Shown: positions 16,036-26,723 of the stretch, piece by piece
Layout: every line of letters starts with the position of its first letter
How positions within the stretch are numbered: position 1 is the stretch's first letter
Assembly: GCA_028871795.1 (NCBI GenBank)
Contig: JAGWMG010000009.1
Coordinates: forward strand, 62,001-126,000
Length of the DNA: 64,000 nucleotides
From: Alphaproteobacteria bacterium
GTDB taxonomy: Bacteria; Pseudomonadota; Alphaproteobacteria; Micropepsales; Micropepsaceae
Direction: 5' to 3'
Notes under the pieces: model-generated
What the model was told of the DNA's origin: nothing
The model's database searches: none
Seen by the model: only the letters and a program-made list of their open reading frames with translations
Position numbers and translations under genes: made by a program

Positions 16036-19000
16036 CTAAACCGATTCCACCGCAACGACGCCCGGCAGGGCTTTGATCGCGTCTTTCATCGCCACGCTGA
16101 CCTGATGGCGCTTGGGCAGCGCGATCTCGACTTCCTCTCCCGCGCCGCCCGGCACCACCAGCGTGACGATGCCCTTGCCGGGCCGGCGCAACTGCTCCGC
16201 CAGGGCGCCGAGCGCACAGGCATCGTTCAGGCGCACGCGCAGGCCTTCGCCCGCCTGCGCCGCCGCTTCGCCCAGATCGGCGATGGCGAGCGCGCGCAGC
16301 TTCAATTCTTCGCCGTCCCAGTCCGCCGCTGCCGTGACCAGCACGGCCTTTCCCGGTTCGAGCAACGGGCGCGAGGCCGCCAGTGCCTCGGAGAACACCA
16401 TCACCTCGAACAGGCCCGTCGGGTCGGACAGCGAAACGAAACCGAAAGGCTGGTCGTTGCGCCCGCGGCGTTCCTGCTTGCGGATGACGGTTCCCGCCAG
16501 AACCATGCGGAAGCCGGAGCGCCGGCGGTCTTCGAGCAGGGTGGCGTAATCGACCGCGCCCAGCCGCTTCAGCGCCGCGCCATAGGCATCGAGCGGATGG
16601 CCGGAGAGGTAGAACCCGACGGCGTTGAACTCCTCGTTCAACCTCTCGTGTGCCGGCCATTCGGCAACCGCGGGCAGACGCACCTCGCTTTCGCTCTGCG
16701 CCGGGCCTGCGAACAAGCTCGTCTGGCCGCTTTCGCGTTCCAGCGCATTGCGCGCCGCGCTGTCGAGCAGCAACTCGGCGGATTCCACCATCTGGCGGCG
16801 GTTGGAATTGAGCGCGTCGAAGGCGCCGGCGCGCGCCAGACTTTCGAAAGCGCGCTTGTTGACCAGTCTGGGGTCCACCCGCGCGGCGAAATCGCCGACG
16901 CTCTTGAAGGGGCCGTCCGCGCGGCGGATGGCGACGACGTGGTCCATCGCCAGCCGGCCCACGCCCTTCACGGCCGCCAGCGCGTAGGTGATGACCCCGG
17001 CTTCGGCGTCGCAGCCGAAGAACGCTTCGGAGCGGTTGATGTCCGGCGGCAGGACCTTGATGCCGAGCCGCTGCGCTTCCTGGCGGAAGACGTTCAGCCG
17101 GTCGGTGTTGCCGATGTCCAGCGTCATGGAGGCGGCCAGGAACGCGACCGGATAATTCGCCTTCAGATAGGCCGTCTGGTAGGCGACCTGCGCATAGGCG
17201 GCCGCATGGCCCTTGTTGAAGCCGTAGCCCGCGAATTTCGCCGCCTGCTCGAAAATCTGTTCGGCGATCGACGGCAGTATCCCCTTCTCGCCCGCGCCCT
17301 TGACGAAAATCCCGCGGTGCTTGGCCATCTCGGAAGGGATCTTCTTGCCCATGATCCGGCGCAACAGATCGGCCTGGCCCATCGTGTACCCGCCGAGCTC
17401 GCGCGCGATGCGCATGACGTCTTCCTGATAGGTCATCACCCCGAAGGTTTCCTTCAGGATCGGTTCGAGGGCGGGATGCAGGTATTCCGGCGCCTCCTTG
17501 CCGGTCTTGCAGGCGATGTATTTGGGGATCGAATCCATCGGGCCGGGGCGATAGAGGGCCACCAGCGCCACCAGATCGTTGATATGATCGGGCTTCATCT
17601 TGCGCATCAGGTCGCGCATGCCCGCGCCTTCGAGCTGGAACACGCCGACGCTGTCGCCGCGCGCCAGCATGTCGAAGGTGGCGCGGTCGTCGAAATCGAT
17701 GTTCTGCGTATCGAGTTCGATCCCGCGCCGTTTCAGCAGTTCCTCCGCCTTGGCGATGACGGTGAGCGTTTTCAGGCCCAGGAAATCGAACTTCACCAGG
17801 CCGGCCTTTTCCGCGTCCTCGTAATCGAACTGCGTGACCGGCATCTCGGAGCGCGGATCGCGATAGAGCGGCAGAAGCTCGTCCAGCGGCCGGTCGCCGA
17901 TGACGACACCGGCGGGATGAGTGGAGGCGTGGCGGTAGAGCCCCTCGATCTTCTCGACGATGGAGAACAGCCGCTCCGTCATCGGTTCCTGTTCGGCGAT
18001 CTGCTGCAGCCTGGGCTCGCTTTCCATGGCGTCGCGCAGTTCGACGTGGCGGCCCGGCGGGTTGGGGATCAGCTTGGCGATGCGGTCGACCAGCCCCAAC
18101 GGCATCTGCAGCACGCGCCCGACGTCGCGCACCGCGGCGCGCGCCTGCAGCGATCCGAGCGCGATGATGTGCGCCACCTTGTCGTGGCCGTATTTGTCGC
18201 ACACGTAGCGCACGACCTCGTCGCGCCGCTCTTGGCAGAAATCGATGTCGAAGTCCGGCATCGAGATGCGTTCCGGATTGAGGAAGCGCTCGAACAGGAG
18301 GCCGAAGCGGATGGGATCAAGGTTGGTGATGTCCAGCGCCCAGGCGACCAGCGAGGTGGCGCCCGAGCCGCGCACGCCCACGGGAATGCCGTGCGCCCGG
18401 GTCCAGCGCATGAAATCCGACACGATCAGGAAGTAGCCCGCGAACCGCATCTTGATGATGACGCCGAGTTCGTATTCCAGCCGTGCCCGATACACGGCTT
18501 CCTCGCCATGGCGGCCGTGCCGCCCTAGGCGCCGCGTGAGACCGGCTTCGGCCTGGACGCGAATCTCGTCTTCCGGCGCGCGCCCGGACTCCGGCACGAA
18601 TTGCGGCAGAATGGGATCGCGCCGTTTGGGCCGAAAGGCGCAGCGCCGCGCGATTTCGACGGTGTTTTCGATCGCCTCGGGTAGATCGGCGAATTGCGCC
18701 GTCATTTCCGCGACCGATTTGAAGCGATGTTCGCGCGTCAACCGCCTGCGGTCGTCCTGCGAAACGAAGGTGCCGTCGGCGATGCAGAGCAGCGCATCGT
18801 GTGCTTCGTACATCCCGGCGGGGCCGAAATGCACGTCGTTGGTCGCCACCAATGGCAACGCTTTTGCGTAGGCGAGATCGATCAGCCCTTCCTCGGCGGC
18901 GCGCTCCTCTGGCAACCCGTGGCGCTGAAGCTCGACATAGAGCCGCCCCGGGAAAATCGCCGCCAGACTGTCTAGCAAAGCGGCGGCCGCATCGGGCTGA

Positions 19001-19467
19001 CCTTCGACGATCAGACGGTTGAGCGGCCCTCCCGGCCCGCCGGTGAGCGCGATCAGCCCCTCCGAATGATCCGCCAAAGCGGCGGACGTCGCATGCGGCC
19101 AATCGCCGGGCTCGGCGTCCAGATAGGCGGCGCTGAGAAGCTTCGTCAGATTGCCGTAGCCGGCGGCGTTCTGCACCAGCAACGGCAGCATTGGCGGCTT
19201 GCTGCGCGAGCCGGAGCCGCCCCCCGGACGGCCCAACTCCACCGCCAGCAGGCAGCCGACGATGGGCTGCACGCCCGCTTTGGCGAGCGTTTCGGAGATT
19301 TCGAAGACGCCGAACAGATTGTTGACGTCCGTCACCGCCACCGCGGGCATGGCGCCGTCGCGGGCCAGTTTCGCCAGCTCGTCCGGCCGCACCGCCCCTT
19401 CGAGCAGTGAATAGGCGCTTTTCACCCGAAGATGCACGAACCCGGCGGGCTTCTTCGCCTCGGCCAT
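16036..19467 (-). CDS. dnaE: DNA polymerase III alpha subunit
   Basis: Replicative polymerase. The 1143 residues (from the ATG at 19467, with GAGAGG upstream; a GTG eight codons earlier is the alternative) include the PHP domain (FVHLRVKSAYSLLEGAVRP near the N-terminus), the catalytic aspartates in RISMPDFDIDFCQERRDEV, the finger region KFDFLGLKTLTVI, the helix-hairpin-helix and a C-terminal OB fold. It lacks the features of the mutagenic DnaE2 cassette (no imuA/imuB neighbours). Directly upstream is an SOS-box microprotein gene, so some dnaE transcription may be damage-inducible by read-through. Confidence 0.95.
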   Translation of the reverse strand: MAEAKKPAGFVHLRVKSAYSLLEGAVRPDELAKLARDGAMPAVAVTDVNNLFGVFEISETLAKAGVQPIVGCLLAVELGRPGGGSGSRSKPPMLPLLVQNAAGYGNLTKLLSAAYLDAEPGDWPHATSAALADHSEGLIALTGGPGGPLNRLIVEGQPDAAAALLDSLAAIFPGRLYVELQRHGLPEERAAEEGLIDLAYAKALPLVATNDVHFGPAGMYEAHDALLCIADGTFVSQDDRRRLTREHRFKSVAEMTAQFADLPEAIENTVEIARRCAFRPKRRDPILPQFVPESGRAPEDEIRVQAEAGLTRRLGRHGRHGEEAVYRARLEYELGVIIKMRFAGYFLIVSDFMRWTRAHGIPVGVRGSGATSLVAWALDITNLDPIRFGLLFERFLNPERISMPDFDIDFCQERRDEVVRYVCDKYGHDKVAHIIALGSLQARAAVRDVGRVLQMPLGLVDRIAKLIPNPPGRHVELRDAMESEPRLQQIAEQEPMTERLFSIVEKIEGLYRHASTHPAGVVIGDRPLDELLPLYRDPRSEMPVTQFDYEDAEKAGLVKFDFLGLKTLTVIAKAEELLKRRGIELDTQNIDFDDRATFDMLARGDSVGVFQLEGAGMRDLMRKMKPDHINDLVALVALYRPGPMDSIPKYIACKTGKEAPEYLHPALEPILKETFGVMTYQEDVMRIARELGGYTMGQADLLRRIMGKKIPSEMAKHRGIFVKGAGEKGILPSIAEQIFEQAAKFAGYGFNKGHAAAYAQVAYQTAYLKANYPVAFLAASMTLDIGNTDRLNVFRQEAQRLGIKVLPPDINRSEAFFGCDAEAGVITYALAAVKGVGRLAMDHVVAIRRADGPFKSVGDFAARVDPRLVNKRAFESLARAGAFDALNSNRRQMVESAELLLDSAARNALERESGQTSLFAGPAQSESEVRLPAVAEWPAHERLNEEFNAVGFYLSGHPLDAYGAALKRLGAVDYATLLEDRRRSGFRMVLAGTVIRKQERRGRNDQPFGFVSLSDPTGLFEVMVFSEALAASRPLLEPGKAVLVTAAADWDGEELKLRALAIADLGEAAAQAGEGLRVRLNDACALGALAEQLRRPGKGIVTLVVPGGAGEEVEIALPKRHQVSVAMKDAIKALPGVVAVESV

Positions 19468-19556
19468 CACGCCTCTCGATTCGACTGTCACTCAGCAGAA
19501 GTATCGGCCGCCCGCACCTCTAGACGAGGCTGCGCGGGTCTTCATCCACAGCAAGT

Positions 19557-19661
19557 TCAACCGGGCGCGAAAAACGCCTGCGCCGCGCTCGTCAGAACAA
19601 AGGACGAAACCAGGATAACCACCAACCCGACGCCCGCCGCCGCATCCTTCAACCACGCCAT
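19557..19661 (-). CDS. Putative SOS-induced small membrane protein (34 aa)
   Basis: Very short frame, MAWLKDAAAGVGLVVILVSS followed by FVLTSAAQAFFAPG. One hydrophobic span of about 20 residues with a Lys and Asp before it predicts a single-pass inner-membrane microprotein (or a short signal-like peptide). GGAG lies six bases before this ATG; another in-frame ATG at 19673 would give 38 residues. A consensus promoter with an embedded LexA box lies directly upstream. In Caulobacter, a LexA-controlled membrane microprotein (SidA) blocks cell division; function here is analogy only, and I see no clear sequence identity. Confidence 0.55.
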   Translation of the reverse strand: MAWLKDAAAGVGLVVILVSSFVLTSAAQAFFAPG

Positions 19662-19685
19662 GATTCGCTCCATCGTTAGGCGCGG

Positions 19686-19715
19686 ACCATATTCGTTCTT
19701 TGTTCGTTCTGTCAA
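19686..19715 (-). promoter_or_regulatory. LexA-regulated promoter (GTTC-N7-GTTC between -35 and -10)
   Basis: On the minus strand TTGACA (19715-19710) is followed 18 bases later by TATGGT (19691-19686). Between them the plus strand reads GTTC at 19695-19698 and GTTC at 19706-19709 with seven bases between, the alphaproteobacterial LexA box; a third GTTC lies at 19702-19705. Predicted start of transcription is near 19679, almost at the microprotein's first ATG, so the leader is only a few bases. Confidence 0.72.
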
Positions 19716-19742
19716 GAACAAAAAGGGACCAGCTAGACACCT

Positions 19743-20213
19743 TTACACTCCAAGGTGGTCTCTGAACGAGCCAAGCGAGATGCGCCACCAGCCGGCGACA
19801 TGCTGAAGCGTTGCGTACTCTGGGAACCCGTGACGCGCGACATGCTCCTGCGGAATAGTGTCCCAGGCCCGGTGTTCGATCGATATGCGTGTCTCGTCGC
19901 CGGCGGATTCAAAACGCACTTCGACCTCCGTTGATTGTTCCGGCCTGAAGGTCGCCTGTCGCCATTTGAAGACGAGGCGCTTGCCGGGTTCCCAAACCGA
20001 AATGCGTCCGATCTCGAATTCCCGGTCCCCTTGGAGTGTTGTGAATAGGCGTCCGCCGACGCCCGGTTCGAAGGCCAGTTTGCCGTCGCCGCGCGGTGTT
20101 ATTTGAAAGAGGCCGCCTGGCTGCCACCACAATGCGATTTCCTGCGTGAACGCTTCGAAGGCCCGCAGAGGATCAGCCGGTACCCGTAACGAAACATAGA
20201 CCTTCGATGTCAT
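19743..20213 (-). CDS. SRPBCC (AHSA1-like) domain protein
   Basis: 156 residues beginning MTSKVYVSLRVPADPLRAFE, the start of a START/Bet v1-like fold, with FKWRQATFRPEQSTEVEVRF and the C-terminal helix ending WRISLGSFRDHLG. Such proteins bind hydrophobic ligands; many are encoded with an ArsR regulator and a VOC protein, as here. The ATGA at 20210-20213 overlaps the arsR stop, so the three genes form one coupled operon. The ligand is unknown. Confidence 0.85.
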   Translation of the reverse strand: MTSKVYVSLRVPADPLRAFEAFTQEIALWWQPGGLFQITPRGDGKLAFEPGVGGRLFTTLQGDREFEIGRISVWEPGKRLVFKWRQATFRPEQSTEVEVRFESAGDETRISIEHRAWDTIPQEHVARHGFPEYATLQHVAGWWRISLGSFRDHLGV

Positions 20214-20542
20214 TTCCTGGTCTTTTGCAGATGACTCCGGAATGCCGCGAGTTGGCACGTCCACAGTCTTTCGGTCTCTTCAAGCCACGTTTTCAGATCG
20301 GCCATCGGTTTGTCGCTCAAGCGATATATGCGAACACGCGAGTCGAACGCATCGCGGTCTTCTTCGACAAGCCCGCTCGTGCGCAGAGTCTTCAAGTGGC
20401 GGCTCATGGCAGGAAAGGAAATTTGCGTCGCTTCGGCGAGTTCACCCGCGCGCCGAGGCCGTTCGCGCAGCAGATCGACGACGCGTCTGCGATGGGGATC
20501 GGCGAGCGCCGCGAGCGTGCGGTCCAGCTTGTAGGTACTCAC
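20210..20542 (-). CDS. ArsR-family transcriptional regulator
   Basis: Winged-helix regulator of 110 residues. I start at the GTG at 20542, whose GTGA overlaps the VOC stop; the open frame upstream only shadows the VOC gene. The helix-turn-helix is visible as ADPHRRRVVDLLRERPRRAG followed by ELAEATQISFPAMSRHLKTL, then the wing LVEEDRDAFDSRVRIYRL. There is no ArsR-type CxC metal site, which fits the metal-independent subgroup found with SRPBCC partners. It probably represses its own operon through the palindrome at 21026-21039. Confidence 0.88.
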   Translation of the reverse strand: MSTYKLDRTLAALADPHRRRVVDLLRERPRRAGELAEATQISFPAMSRHLKTLRTSGLVEEDRDAFDSRVRIYRLSDKPMADLKTWLEETERLWTCQLAAFRSHLQKTRK

Positions 20543-21003
20543 GTCAGATTCTTGAATTTGAGGCCGCTCGCCTTCTCCATTTCCTCGTTGGAAACATGCT
20601 TGATCGGTTGCGAGAAGGTCCAGTGATGGCCCTCGAGATCGGCGGCGATGTAGCTCCGTTCGCCGTAAAATTGATCGGCGGGCTCCATTACGATAATCGC
20701 ACCAGCCTGCCGCGCCCGGGCGCAATGCGCATCGAGGTCGCGATCGACACGCACATGAACGCGCTGGGTGTTCTTGCCGCCCAACGACGCCGGGCTCTTG
20801 GTCCAATCAGCCCATTCGCTACCAATCATGACGACGCCGTCACCAAAGCTCATCTCGGCATGCGCGATGTTGCCGTTGGCGTCAGTCAGCACTTCACTCG
20901 CGTCAAATCCAAATGCGCTTTGCAGCCATTTGAGCGCCATGCGATTGTCCTTATAGACGAGCGAGGGAATGAACGACGGACGGCGGGGTGCTGCAGTAGC
21001 CAT
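20539..21003 (-). CDS. VOC/glyoxalase-like (PhnB-type) protein
   Basis: 154 residues of the vicinal-oxygen-chelate fold, with paired beta-alpha-beta modules: SLVYKDNRMALKWLQSAFGF near the N-terminus, EMSFGDGVVMIGSEW, and RSYIAADLEGHHWTFSQP near residue 125. Similar proteins bind or modify small organic compounds or antibiotics. It is the first gene of the VOC-arsR-SRPBCC operon. Confidence 0.85.
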   Translation of the reverse strand: MATAAPRRPSFIPSLVYKDNRMALKWLQSAFGFDASEVLTDANGNIAHAEMSFGDGVVMIGSEWADWTKSPASLGGKNTQRVHVRVDRDLDAHCARARQAGAIIVMEPADQFYGERSYIAADLEGHHWTFSQPIKHVSNEEMEKASGLKFKNLT

Positions 21004-21025
21004 TTGAAACTCCTATTTAATTGTC

Positions 21026-21067
21026 ATATTGCACAATATTTAACACGATAAGCAAATATATTGTCAA
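21026..21067 (-). promoter_or_regulatory. Promoter and palindromic operator of the VOC-arsR-SRPBCC operon
   Basis: Minus-strand TTGACA (21067-21062), then TTAAAT (21043-21038) after 18 bases. The perfect palindrome ATATTGCACAATAT (21026-21039) touches the -10 and covers the expected start of transcription, the right place for an ArsR-type repressor. The region is AT-rich against the local background. Confidence 0.6.
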
Positions 21068-21183
21068 GGCACTCCCAGCCTCAAAACGAAAATCGACATA
21101 GCATGGCTGCATCGCAGGCGGAGCAGAAAACCGCCTGCATCGGGCCGGTAGCGGACGTTGCCGGTTCGGCGTCAGCCGTCGCC

Positions 21184-21846
21184 TCACCCCCCGACGACCT
21201 GCGCGATGACGAAGCCGTCGTAGCCTTTGACTCCGACGGTTTGCAGGACGGTGGCTGAGACCCGCGGCTCGGCGGCGATGGTGTCCACGAGCCGGCGCGT
21301 GCCCGTCACGCCCGCGTCGGTGCTATTCGCGTCGATCACATTTCCGTCGCGCACGACATTGTCCACCACGATCACGCTGCCGCGCCGCGAAAGGTTCAGT
21401 GCCCAGCGGAAATAGTCCGCGTTGGACGTCTTGTCGGCGTCGATGAAGAAGAAGTCGAAGGTGCCGGAAAGCCTGGGCAGCGTGTCGAGCGCGCGCCCGA
21501 CCATCACTTCGACGACATCCGCCAGACCAGCGCCTGCGATGTTGGCGCGCGCCACTTCGGCGTGTTTCGGGTCGACTTCCAGCGTGATCAGCTTGCCGCC
21601 GGGCGGCAGCGCGCGGGCGAGCCAGATGGTGCTGTAGCCGCCCAGCGTACCGATCTCCAATATTCTTCTGGCTCCCCGCATACGGGCCAACAGGTGGAGC
21701 AGCTTGCCCTGGTTCGGGGCCACGGCGATGTCCGGCAGGCCGGCTTCCCGGCACGCCTGCGCGGCAGCATCGAGCGCGGCGTCGGGCGCCAGCAGCAAGT
21801 CCGCGAAATAACGATCGACGTCGCACCACAGTTCTTTCGTCATCAA
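21184..21846 (-). CDS. SAM-dependent O-methyltransferase (CCoAOMT-like)
   Basis: 220 residues of the class I methyltransferase fold: the SAM loop ILEIGTLGGYSTIWLARAL near residues 60-80, LITLEVDPKHAEVARANI, and the metal/catalytic Asp in FDFFFIDADKTSNADYF, followed by IVVDNVVRDGNV. This is the pattern of cation-dependent catechol O-methyltransferases such as the caffeoyl-CoA family. The acceptor is unknown. It stands alone between two minus-strand units. Confidence 0.88.
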   Translation of the reverse strand: MMTKELWCDVDRYFADLLLAPDAALDAAAQACREAGLPDIAVAPNQGKLLHLLARMRGARRILEIGTLGGYSTIWLARALPPGGKLITLEVDPKHAEVARANIAGAGLADVVEVMVGRALDTLPRLSGTFDFFFIDADKTSNADYFRWALNLSRRGSVIVVDNVVRDGNVIDANSTDAGVTGTRRLVDTIAAEPRVSATVLQTVGVKGYDGFVIAQVVGG

Positions 21847-21923
21847 AGCGTGCTCCCGGTCTTTCCGTCACGAACCGAAGATAGGCACGACAACCGGCGT
21901 TGCCAACCCTGCGGCGTGCGAGG

Positions 21924-23393
21924 TCATTCCGGCAAAAGGTCGCCCAATTGCGTGCGCAGCGGAGCGAGATGCTTTTCGTAATGCCGCCAGCGGCCGGAAG
22001 ACCGGCGATAGAGCGGCTCGCGCACCTGCCAGACGCTCGCCGTCTTGACGGTGTTTTTCGCGCGATGGAACGACAGGCAGGCGTCGTCCCAGTCCAATCC
22101 GCAGAATGCCAGCAGCCGTTCCACGGCCGGTCTCGGTTCGCCGACGAAAGCGTCGTAGTCGAAATCGAGAATGTCCGCCCCGAAGCATGATTTCCAATGC
22201 GCCATCAGGCGGCGGTACTGCCGGTAACAATGCGCCGTATCCGCCAGGTCGAGCGCGTAACCCATGCTGTGGTCGAGATGCAGAAAATAGATCGACAGGC
22301 AATTGTCCAGCGGATGGCGCGTGGTGTGGACGATCTTGGCATCCGGAAACAGGCTTTTGATGAGACCGATGTACAGGTAATTGTCCGGACGTTTGTCCGT
22401 GACAAGATCGGCGCCCGGGAACAACGCGGCAATCCTGTCGCGATAGCGCGCGGCCAGCCCGTCGAGCGTCGCCGGCGCCATTTGCTTCATCGCAACGGGA
22501 AACGGCGCCAGCTCGGACTGCACGCAACCGGGCAGGAAATCGATCTCGCCGCCCGCCGTCACGCGCGGATGGCTTGCCAGGACCTGTTCGACGAGCGTGG
22601 AACCCGACCGAAACATGCCACAGATGAAGACCGGCGGCCGCGAGCTCGTGGATGCGGCGCCTCCAATTCCTCCGTGCGCAAAAGTCTCGACCAGTTGATC
22701 GACGTATTCTTCTTGCTGCCGCCGGTCATAGAGCGCGCCGCGGGTAACGGCGGATTCGCGGCTGTAACGGTTTGCCGAAACGTAAGTGTTGAACGCGTCG
22801 TCATAGGCCCCGCAACCGTCCAGCAGCTTGCCGAGAGCGAAAGTCAGACTCGCTCTGTCGGCGGCGTTGGCACCACCCATGGCGATCGTTTGTTTCAACC
22901 TTGCGATCAAGGGATCGGACGGTCCGGCAACAGTCTTCAGGTTCGCATAGCGCGCCAGCGCCACGTAACTGCGCGGATCGAGCTTCAGAATCCGCTCGTA
23001 AACAGCGAGAGCCTCGTCTCGCCGGCCGCGGTCTTCGTGAAGATTGCCGAGATTGAGGAGCGCGGGGAGATAATTCGGATTCAGCGCCAGCGCGGCCAGA
23101 TACTCCCGTTCCGCGGCGTCGTCCCGGCGCAGATGGTCCGCATAGATGACGCCGCAATTCAAGTGGACTTCTTCCGGCCGCGATACACCGCGCTTCAGAG
23201 CCTGCCCGTAGGACGCAAGGGCCGCGTCGAAGCGGCCCGACAAGCGTTGCAGAAGTGCGAGATTGTACCAGCTATCCGGCAAGTCCGGCCGGCGCGCCAG
23301 CAACCGCTCGTAGACGGCTTCGGCCTCGGCAAGCTTGCCCGCTTCACGCAACTCCGCTGCTTGGCGCAGCATCACATCGAGGTTTTCGCTCAC
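21924..23393 (-). CDS. TPR-repeat sulfotransferase
   Basis: 489 residues in two halves. Residues 1-240 are tetratricopeptide repeats (PDLPDSWYNLALLQRLSG, PNYLPALLNLGNLHEDRG). From about residue 250 there is a sulfotransferase domain with the PAPS 5'-phosphosulfate loop FICGMFRSGSTLVEQVLASH and the 3'-phosphate segment KIVHTTRHPLDNCLSIYF. Proteins of this design probably sulfate cell-surface or secreted targets, but no substrate can be inferred. M1 is a GTG; an ATG seven codons later is an alternative. Confidence 0.87.
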   Translation of the reverse strand: MSENLDVMLRQAAELREAGKLAEAEAVYERLLARRPDLPDSWYNLALLQRLSGRFDAALASYGQALKRGVSRPEEVHLNCGVIYADHLRRDDAAEREYLAALALNPNYLPALLNLGNLHEDRGRRDEALAVYERILKLDPRSYVALARYANLKTVAGPSDPLIARLKQTIAMGGANAADRASLTFALGKLLDGCGAYDDAFNTYVSANRYSRESAVTRGALYDRRQQEEYVDQLVETFAHGGIGGAASTSSRPPVFICGMFRSGSTLVEQVLASHPRVTAGGEIDFLPGCVQSELAPFPVAMKQMAPATLDGLAARYRDRIAALFPGADLVTDKRPDNYLYIGLIKSLFPDAKIVHTTRHPLDNCLSIYFLHLDHSMGYALDLADTAHCYRQYRRLMAHWKSCFGADILDFDYDAFVGEPRPAVERLLAFCGLDWDDACLSFHRAKNTVKTASVWQVREPLYRRSSGRWRHYEKHLAPLRTQLGDLLPE

Positions 23394-23418
23394 GGCCTTG
23401 CCGGCTTTGTGCCGCCCA

Positions 23419-24132
23419 TCATGTCCGGTTCACCAGCTCTTTGCCGTCGATCAACCGACCTTCGTGCAGGACCAGCGCGCGGTCCATTTTCGCGGCAAGC
23501 TGAAGGTTGTGCGTTGCCACCAGCGCCGCCAGCCCTTCGGCGCGCACGATAGCGAGGAGCGCTTCGAACACGCCCGCCGCAGTGCGCTGGTCGAGATTGC
23601 CGGTGGGCTCGTCGGCGAGCAGAAGCCGCGGCCCGTTCGCCAGCGCGCGCGCGATCGCCACGCGCTGCTGCTCGCCGCCCGAAAGCTGCGATGGACGGTG
23701 CGTCATGCGATTCTCCAGCCCCATCATGGCCAGCAGCCGCCGGGCTTCATCCTCGGCGTCCTTGCGGCGCTTTCCGGAAATGAGCTGCGGAATCATGATG
23801 TTTTCGAGTGCCGTGAATTCCGGCAGCAAATGGTGAGCCTGATAAACGAAGCCGATCGTATCGCGGCGGATGCGTGTGCGCTCGGCGTCGGAGAGCGACG
23901 AGGCGGCGGCGCCGGCAATCACGATTTCGCCCGCACTCGGCGCTTCCAGCAGGCCCGCCATGTGCAGCAGCGAGGATTTTCCCGCGCCCGACGGCCCCAC
24001 CAGCGCCACCAGCTCGCCCGCCGCCAAAGCCACATTCACGTCGCGGAAGACCTCGAGCTGGCCTTCGCCTTGCGGGTAGCGGCGGGCCACGGCGTCCAGG
24101 CGCAAGACGGCGGCGGCGAAGGCGTCATTCAT
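23419..24132 (-). CDS. lolD: Lipoprotein-releasing ABC transporter, ATPase LolD
   Basis: ATPase of the LolCDE complex, which extracts lipoproteins from the inner membrane. 237 residues with Walker [20 protein letters not shown]-loop [12 protein letters not shown], signature [15 protein letters not shown] and Walker [14 protein letters not shown]. It starts eight bases inside the 3' end of the permease gene. Confidence 0.93.
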
Positions 24133-25387
24133 AACGCAGCGCCTCCACCGGATCGAGGCGCGCGGCGCGCCAGGCGGGATAAAGCGTCGCCAGGAAACTG
24201 AGAGTCAAAGACATCGCCACGACGGTGATGACTTCGCCGGGGTCCATCTCGGCCGGCATGTGGCTCAGGAAATAGATTTCCGGATTGAACAGCGTCGTCC
24301 CCGTAAGCTGGGAAAGGAACACGCGAATCGTCTCGATGTTGGCGCAGAACGCCACGCCGATGCCGAAGCCGAACAGCGTGCCCGCGATGCCGATGCTGAC
24401 GCCCGCGATCATAAAGATGCGCATCACCGCGCCGCGCGTCGCCCCCATGGTGCGCAGGATGGCAATGTCGGACGACTTGTCCTTCACCAGCATGTAGAGA
24501 CCGGAGACGATGTTCAGCGCCGCCACCAGGATGATGAGCGTCAGGATGAGGAACATCACGTTGCGTTCGACCTGGATGGCGTCGAAGAACGTCGATTCCG
24601 TATCGTGCCACGTGTAGACGCGCGCGTACGGTCCGGCGGCGCGTTCGATGGGCGCCGCCATATCGTCTACCTTGTCGGGATCGGCGACCATCGTCTCCAG
24701 GCCGGTGACGGTGTTGTCCATGTTGAAATAGAGCTGCGCCTCGTCGAGCGGCATGAAGACGATGCAGCAATCGTACTTGCTCATGCCGATGTCGAAGGTG
24801 CCGGCGATCCTGTAGGTCTTGATGCGCGGCGTCGTTCCGAACGGCGTGACATTGCCGCGCGCCGCGATCAACGTGATCGTCATGCCGGGGACGAGCCGCA
24901 GGCTGCGCGCCAGCCGCTTGCCGACGATCACGGAATCTCCGTCTTCGTAATGCTCGAGCGCGCCTTCCGATAAAGTGCCGGAGACAACGGTGAACGTCTT
25001 GAGGTCGGCCTCGCGCAGGCCGCGCACCAGCACGCCGGCATTCAAGCCGCGGGCGCTGGCCATCGCCTCCCCGTTCACGATGGGCGCCACGCGCACCACG
25101 CCCGGCACCGCGCGCACGCGTGCGGCAACGCGGTCGTAATCGGGCAGGCCGCCCTCGAGGCCTTGGACGATGATGTGGCCGTCCAGTCCCAGAATCTTCG
25201 ACAGCAACTCGTGACGAAAGCCGTTCATCACCGCCATCACGATGATGAGCGTGGCCACGCCGAGCGCGATGCCGACCAGCGAGATCACCGAAATGACGGA
25301 GATGAAGCTCTCTGCCCGCTTGGCGCGCAGGTAGCGCCAGGCCAGCATCCATTCGAACGGCGCGAACGGCCTCGTATCAGCCCTCAT
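24125..25387 (-). CDS. lolC: Lipoprotein-releasing system permease (LolC/LolE family)
   Basis: Inner-membrane permease partner of LolD. 420 residues from the ATG at 25387: a cytosolic N-terminus [14 protein letters not shown], first membrane span with [19 protein letters not shown]-like sequence, a large periplasmic domain of about 220 residues, then three C-terminal spans of the FtsX fold. Only one permease gene is present, as in alphaproteobacteria that use a single LolC/E-type (LolF-like) protein. It begins 17 bases after the proS stop. Confidence 0.9.
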
Positions 25388-25403
25388 GCGCTCTTGTCTT
25401 TCG

Positions 25404-26723
25404 TCAGCGCGCAAATCTGTTCACCACCGCTTCCGCCGAGAGTTCTTCCTTGGCGCCGGTCTTGCGGTTCTTGACCTCGACGAGGCCCTTCTCCAGTCCA
25501 CGCGGACCGACGACCACCTGCCAGGGCAGCCCGATCAAATCCATGCCGGCGAATTTGGCGCCGGGCCGCTCCGCCGTGTCGTCGTAGAGTACGTCTTTGC
25601 CTGCTGCCTGCAACTTCGCATAGAGGCCTTCGCAGGCGGCGTCGGTCTTGGCGTCGCCGGTCTTGAGATTGACCAGGCCGATGTCGAACGGTGCCACCGG
25701 CTCCGGCCAGACGATCCCCGCCTCGTCGTGGGACGCCTCGATGATGGCGCCGACCAGCCGCGATACGCCCACACCGTACGAACCGCTCTCCACCGGCACT
25801 TTCTTGCCGTCCGGGCCGGCCACCACCGCCTTCATCGGCTTGGAGTACTTGGTGCCGAAATAGAAGATCTGACCGACCTCGATGCCGCGCGCCGACATGC
25901 GCTTGTCCGCGGGCACCTCCGCCTCGAAACGTGCCGCGTCGTGCACGTCGGAGGTGGCGGCGTAGAGATTGGTCCGCTGGCGCACGATCGGCTCGAGATC
26001 GCCGTCGAAATCCACGTCGGCGGGCGGGACCGGCATCTCCAGCAGGTCCTTGTGGCAGTAGACTTGGCTTTCGCCGGTGTCGGCCAGGACGATGAACTCG
26101 TGGGAAAGATCGCCGCCGATGGGGCCGGTCTCCGCGCGCATCGGAATGGTGACGAGCCCCATGCGCGAAAACGTGCGCAGGTAGGCGACGTACATCCTGT
26201 TGTACGAGCGCCGGGCGCCCGCCGTGTCCAGGTCGAAGGAATAGGCGTCCTTCATCAGAAATTCGCGGCCGCGCATCACCCCAAAGCGCGGGCGGACCTC
26301 GTCGCGGAATTTCCACTGGATATGGTAGAGATTGAGCGGCAGGGATTTGTACGAGCGCACATAGGCGCGGAAGATCTCCGTCACCATGTCCTCGTTGGTG
26401 GGGCCGTAGAGCAGCTCGCGCTCGTGGCGATCCTTGAGGCGCAGCATCTCCGGCCCGTAGGCGTCGTAGCGGCCGGTTTCCTTCCACAACTCCGACGGCT
26501 GCAGCGTCGGCATGAGGATTTCGACGGCGCCGGCCCGGTTCATCTCCTCGCGGACGATCCGTTCGATCTTCTTGAGCACGCGCAAGCCCAGCGGCAGCCA
26601 GGCATAGATGCCCGCCGCCTCCTGGCGGACCAGCCCGGCGCGCAGCATCAGCCGATGGGAGACGATCTGGGCCTCGGCGGGGGTTTCCTTGAGCAGTGGC
26701 AGGAAATAACGGGAAAGGCGCAT
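25404..26723 (-). CDS. proS: Prolyl-tRNA synthetase
   Basis: Class II aminoacyl-tRNA synthetase charging tRNA-Pro. The 439-residue length marks the short alphaproteobacterial type, which lacks the roughly 180-residue editing insertion. Motif 1 lies around [20 protein letters not shown], motif 2 around [20 protein letters not shown], and motif 3 [13 protein letters not shown]. The C-terminal anticodon-binding domain begins near residue 340. Confidence 0.95.

Follow-up and report, generated by a model that had tools for sequence, protein, structure and literature searches.

The closest described system to the locus considered here is SidA of Caulobacter crescentus, an inner membrane protein of 29 amino acids through which division is inhibited by way of FtsW (PMC4211646), and AlphaFold 3 models of modest confidence put SidA on TM7 of FtsW (PMC13396833). 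The sidA gene is CCNA_02004 (PMC11034885) and C. crescentus dnaE is CC1926 (PMC1839093); a literature search for CC1927 and CCNA_02003 found no paper. We recognised a C. crescentus genome by its 100% PopZ identity (the exact match also supports the PopZ query itself), and identified SidA by PopZ, length, locus and NCBIfam model. The open reading frame directly before dnaE in that genome encodes 29 residues, is preceded by GAACATCTTGTGAAC, and matches div_inhib_SidA (NCBIfam NF033228) with 72.4 bits against a cut-off of 35; sidA and dnaE are nearly contiguous, with about 36 nt between them.

A comparable arrangement lies on the minus strand of the window, by which we mean the whole 64,000-nucleotide stretch of DNA analysed. 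It contains a microprotein gene directly upstream of dnaE, as sidA is in C. crescentus, and we judge it quite probable that this gene, at the ancestral sidA-dnaE locus, encodes a LexA-controlled division inhibitor of a divergent SidA type, most likely acting through FtsW. The features, from upstream to downstream, are these:

19686..19715, minus strand: microprotein promoter, with TTGACA at 19715-19710, an 18-nt spacer and TATGGT at 19691-19686 (promoter scan)
19695..19709, minus strand: LexA-type box GAACGAACAAAGAAC (GAACN7GAAC), between the -35 and -10 (conservation in relatives)
19668..19671, minus strand: GGAG, Shine-Dalgarno-like and kept in relatives (alignment of relatives)
19557..19661, minus strand: SidA-type microprotein MAWLKDAAAGVGLVVILVSSFVLTSAAQAFFAPG, 34 residues with a single membrane span (open reading frame and conservation)
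19542..19550, minus strand: TGTGGATGA, DnaA-box-like and conserved, in the gap from the microprotein gene to dnaE (putative function)
19500..19505, minus strand: GATACT, a conserved -10-like hexamer that may belong to a separate promoter for dnaE (putative function)
16036..19467, minus strand: dnaE, replicative DNA polymerase III alpha subunit (open reading frame and domain search)

A preliminary description of this DNA had the coordinates and the anatomy right: promoter, box, reading frame and then dnaE follow one another on the minus strand. It placed a LexA box between the -35 and -10, where TTGACA, the box and TATGGT are indeed all present, and it proposed a single-span protein of 34-38 residues, the 34-residue version of which is favoured by the conserved GGAG and ATG. 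It also put dnaE about 90 bases further on, and the distance from the microprotein stop codon (19559-19557) to the likely dnaE start is 89 nt. The longest dnaE reading frame begins at a GTG at 19491, and we consider the ATG at 19467 the likelier start.

The promoter scan found one site in place of 0.0 in shuffled sequences. Counting GAACN7GAAC motifs was dismissed as uninformative by itself, the control pattern being equally frequent: there is one match in the window against 1.9 expected, which is not significant, and genome-wide the motif is no commoner than its reversed pattern (80 and 82 matches respectively). The abundance of the motif would favour the view that box and reading frame are both products of chance. 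However, an exact GAACN7GAAC lies within 110 nt of the microprotein start at 30 of 30 homologous loci and in only 1 of 608 control windows, and it is this conservation that makes the box significant; the seven spacer letters vary freely across the 30 loci. The start, the Shine-Dalgarno-like motif and the protein are conserved as well, and we regard a chance origin as extremely improbable.

The genome has one LexA gene, whose own promoter is of the same design as that of the microprotein (TTGACG...GAACTAAAGTAGAAC), and the exact lexA box also precedes the microprotein in two relatives (L043 and L052). Further GAACN7GAAC boxes lie between uvrA-like and ssb-like reading frames and before two Y-family-polymerase-like reading frames, the names being taken from reading the translations. 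The microprotein thus has a conserved LexA operator in its promoter and a LexA in its genome. We also note a LexA-type box, GAACAAAACAGGAAC, 81 nt before a DNA-methyltransferase-like reading frame at another locus of the same genome (L007). In the same genome, with loci L003 and L025 and a PF07733 search considered, one DnaE-type polymerase only and no DnaE2 was found (the assembly is 96% complete), while the two Y-family-polymerase-like reading frames carry LexA-type boxes. Immediately 5' of the LexA box, TTTTGTTCTTG (window 19710-19724, minus strand) is conserved at homologous places in L031-L060, and is kept even at loci without the GAAC that comes after it in the window, where GTTCT-N4-AGAAC forms an inverted repeat. 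This element may serve as an additional LexA half-site or simply be the -35 region.

The microprotein most likely starts at the ATG at 19661. The alternative ATG at 19673, which would yield 38 residues, is mostly absent in relatives, whereas ATG 19661 is conserved, and the shorter form is favoured by a GGAG-type motif and an ATG that relatives retain immediately ahead of the conserved W-x-K-D. The best 19-residue mean hydropathy is 2.17, and nearly all relatives are 29-35 residues long, so that the protein is of about 30 residues with a single membrane span. The preliminary description had proposed tBLASTn as a check on conservation, and in that search 34 of the 37 genus genomes have the frame, with the box at all 30 loci; the three genomes with no match are incomplete assemblies (58-74% complete), and outside the genus there is a single weak match (E 0.15) in another genus. 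W3, D6 and A9 are invariant in an alignment of 22 sequences. The pooled pN/pS is 0.51, with several close pairs at 0.07-0.22 and a few others near 1, and the reading frame is, as judged by sequence comparison, under purifying selection.

The relationship between the microprotein gene and dnaE requires separate consideration. In the genus genomes in which dnaE was located, the microprotein gene lies just upstream of it. A different gene follows the microprotein in four genomes (G007, G010, G025 and G032), and in two of these, G007 and G010 (loci L066 and L070; dnaE located), microprotein and dnaE are separated by another gene, about 140 codons long, with box and microprotein kept. The 89-nt gap contains a TGTGGA element in 23 of 24 relatives and GATACT in 17 of 24, both far above shuffles. 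These elements suggest that dnaE has a promoter of its own, which DnaA may control. Across the class, DnaA-box-like sites with no more than one mismatch occur before dnaE in 34% of cases and in 6% of control stretches, and this enrichment across the Alphaproteobacteria may reflect DnaA control of dnaE. A scan for terminator-like sites between the microprotein gene and dnaE found none, so read-through into dnaE is possible; the preliminary description had suggested that dnaE may be damage-inducible.

That absence, together with the separation of only about 36 nt in C. crescentus, could be taken to mean that the transcript is mainly a LexA-controlled dnaE leader, in which the promoter raises polymerase after damage and the small reading frame is a translated tuning leader. 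We think this improbable, since the reading frame conserves its amino acids and retains its membrane span, G007 and G010 keep the protein and the box despite another gene before dnaE, and dnaE is preceded by its own promoter-like element, which is conserved. As to the wider neighbourhood, in other alphaproteobacteria an ABC-transporter (lolD-like) gene lies directly before the microprotein-dnaE unit or dnaE; in the window an AHSA1-domain gene, an ArsR-type regulator, a glyoxalase-like gene and others (19743-25414, minus strand) stand between lolD/lolC-like genes and the unit.

When the regions upstream of dnaE were surveyed across the class, the combination of box, small single-span reading frame and dnaE was seen in families f4 (for example at locus L081), f9, f57 (Caulobacteraceae), f72, f108 and f113. 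A similar small reading frame lies upstream of dnaE in f110, and there are likely further cases in f51 and f104, found by reading sequence only. Examples of the encoded proteins are MSEWVKDTAALFVLGAVMWSGFALTAAAQAAG, MDWVKDAFGLATLVGLWGAFAAWGEIISTVVGG and MTNFLKDFLALSSVVGVLWAVTVWSAIVGSALT.

Is the microprotein related to SidA by descent? The alternative is that SidA was replaced here by a membrane microprotein of separate descent, itself under LexA control, perhaps with another target, which may be the membrane potential (as for DinQ, TisB and similar toxic SOS peptides) or another part of the divisome. In keeping with this, the window microprotein gives no match to the NF033228 SidA model, whose equivalog threshold is >35 bits, a genome-wide search (G000) at E <= 10 gives none either, and searches of the microprotein against Pfam and NCBIfam matched no family. 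Direct comparison of the genus profile with that of SidA is marginal, with 3 and 7 shuffles out of 200 scoring as well. Small hydrophobic helices carry little sequence signal. Because the direct comparison is weak, we took a route through intermediates, namely ten small-ORF proteins of other families, the same ten being used for both comparisons. With hhalign the genus profile matches these at E 1.5e-7 (94% probability), and Caulobacteraceae SidA matches them at E 4e-6 (87% probability) with no sequence common to both alignments; none of 400 column shuffles, half of them preserving the end-span-end blocks, equalled either score. None of the intermediate families tested reaches the SidA model cut-off, which is exceeded only in Caulobacteraceae among the genomes tested, and some Caulobacteraceae forms are already under it.

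The distribution of carriers is also informative. On an 84-row DnaE tree every carrier belongs to a single group of 54 rows (support 84/69), which also includes non-carriers, among them Rhodobacterales, and the carrier state requires 8 changes compared with 28 in shuffles. Five carriers were labelled by hand: L066 and L070, whose box is outside the part that was scanned, and L277, L279 and L280, which have near-consensus boxes and a clear SidA-like reading frame; L105, labelled a carrier, is doubtful. The 8 changes are an overestimate, because four rows labelled non-carriers (L262, L271, L272 and L274) also show SidA-like reading frames and near-consensus boxes. The simplest reading is one origin of the sidA-dnaE layout, with losses. 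The significant profile links through intermediates, the confinement of carriers to one part of the DnaE tree, and a locus, operator and length class all the same as those of SidA argue against an unrelated replacement, which we consider unlikely.

We therefore return to the reading of a SidA relative. Since the microprotein occupies the place where Caulobacter keeps SidA, it is probably a remote form of SidA, missed by annotation, which holds up cell division upon DNA damage, by analogy with that protein. It is SidA-type by locus and likely descent, and lies outside the curated SidA equivalog. The preliminary description saw a SidA-like LexA-controlled layout, which the conservation of frame and box in relatives bears out, and contrasted it with SidA by its adjacency to dnaE, a contrast that falls because C. 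crescentus sidA also adjoins dnaE. Its proposal of an undescribed damage checkpoint stands as regards a LexA-controlled, SidA-like microprotein but not as regards newness, the locus being SidA's own; with sidA itself directly preceding dnaE in C. crescentus, the microprotein is most likely a divergent SidA relative and not a new kind of checkpoint.

It is well established that LexA bound between the -35 and -10 represses and that RecA-stimulated LexA cleavage derepresses. At this locus, LexA so bound would keep the microprotein gene off, and DNA damage would activate RecA, bring about LexA cleavage and allow the 34-residue protein to be made; damage induction is thus inferred from the promoter layout. 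The protein would enter the inner membrane with its short K/D-bearing N-terminus inside and the helix across, an N-in, C-out topology being predicted from the single lysine near the N-terminus. It would then contact FtsW, blocking a late division step until repair is done, as SidA does; arrest through FtsW is the most likely mode by analogy with SidA. There are two FtsW/RodA-family genes in the genome.

Several families beyond Caulobacteraceae thus have the sidA-dnaE locus, with a protein that is still recognisable yet far more divergent. This distribution, with the placed carriers confined to a single part of the DnaE tree, suggests a long-standing SOS checkpoint linked to dnaE. More tentatively, and we hold this to be possible rather than probable, LexA box, sidA and dnaE may constitute an ancient module coupling division arrest to polymerase supply, in which one LexA-controlled transcript halts division and raises dnaE, an intergenic DnaA-box-like promoter links dnaE to the initiation of replication, and the lineage of the window represents a distinct SidA subfamily missed by existing annotation. 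SidA-type inhibitors can be found by position instead of sequence, and it is now testable how so variable a helix keeps reaching the divisome, and why the checkpoint remains in front of the replicative polymerase.

Other known inhibitors are more distant. DidA of C. crescentus is, like the SidA type, a damage-induced small membrane division inhibitor that targets late divisome proteins, but it has 71 residues, is SOS-independent and DriD-controlled, and lies at a different locus (PMC4211646). YneA (Bacillus), SosA (Staphylococcus) and ChiZ (Mycobacterium) are likewise damage-induced small membrane division inhibitors, with FtsW contact shown for YneA and predicted for the others (PMC13396833), although they belong to other lineages and loci, and outside the membrane span YneA and ChiZ carry LysM and SosA an extended helix, unlike the microprotein. 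SidA differs from the microprotein in its signature (A-R-E-S-x-A-L as opposed to W-x-K-D-A-A-A-G) and its length (29 as opposed to 34 residues); the gap to dnaE is longer at the microprotein locus, with a promoter-like element, and the microprotein sequence is too divergent for the SidA model. Nevertheless, the two share a basic/acidic pair near the N-terminus, the locus directly before dnaE, the GAACN7GAAC operator, one span and a length of about 30 residues.
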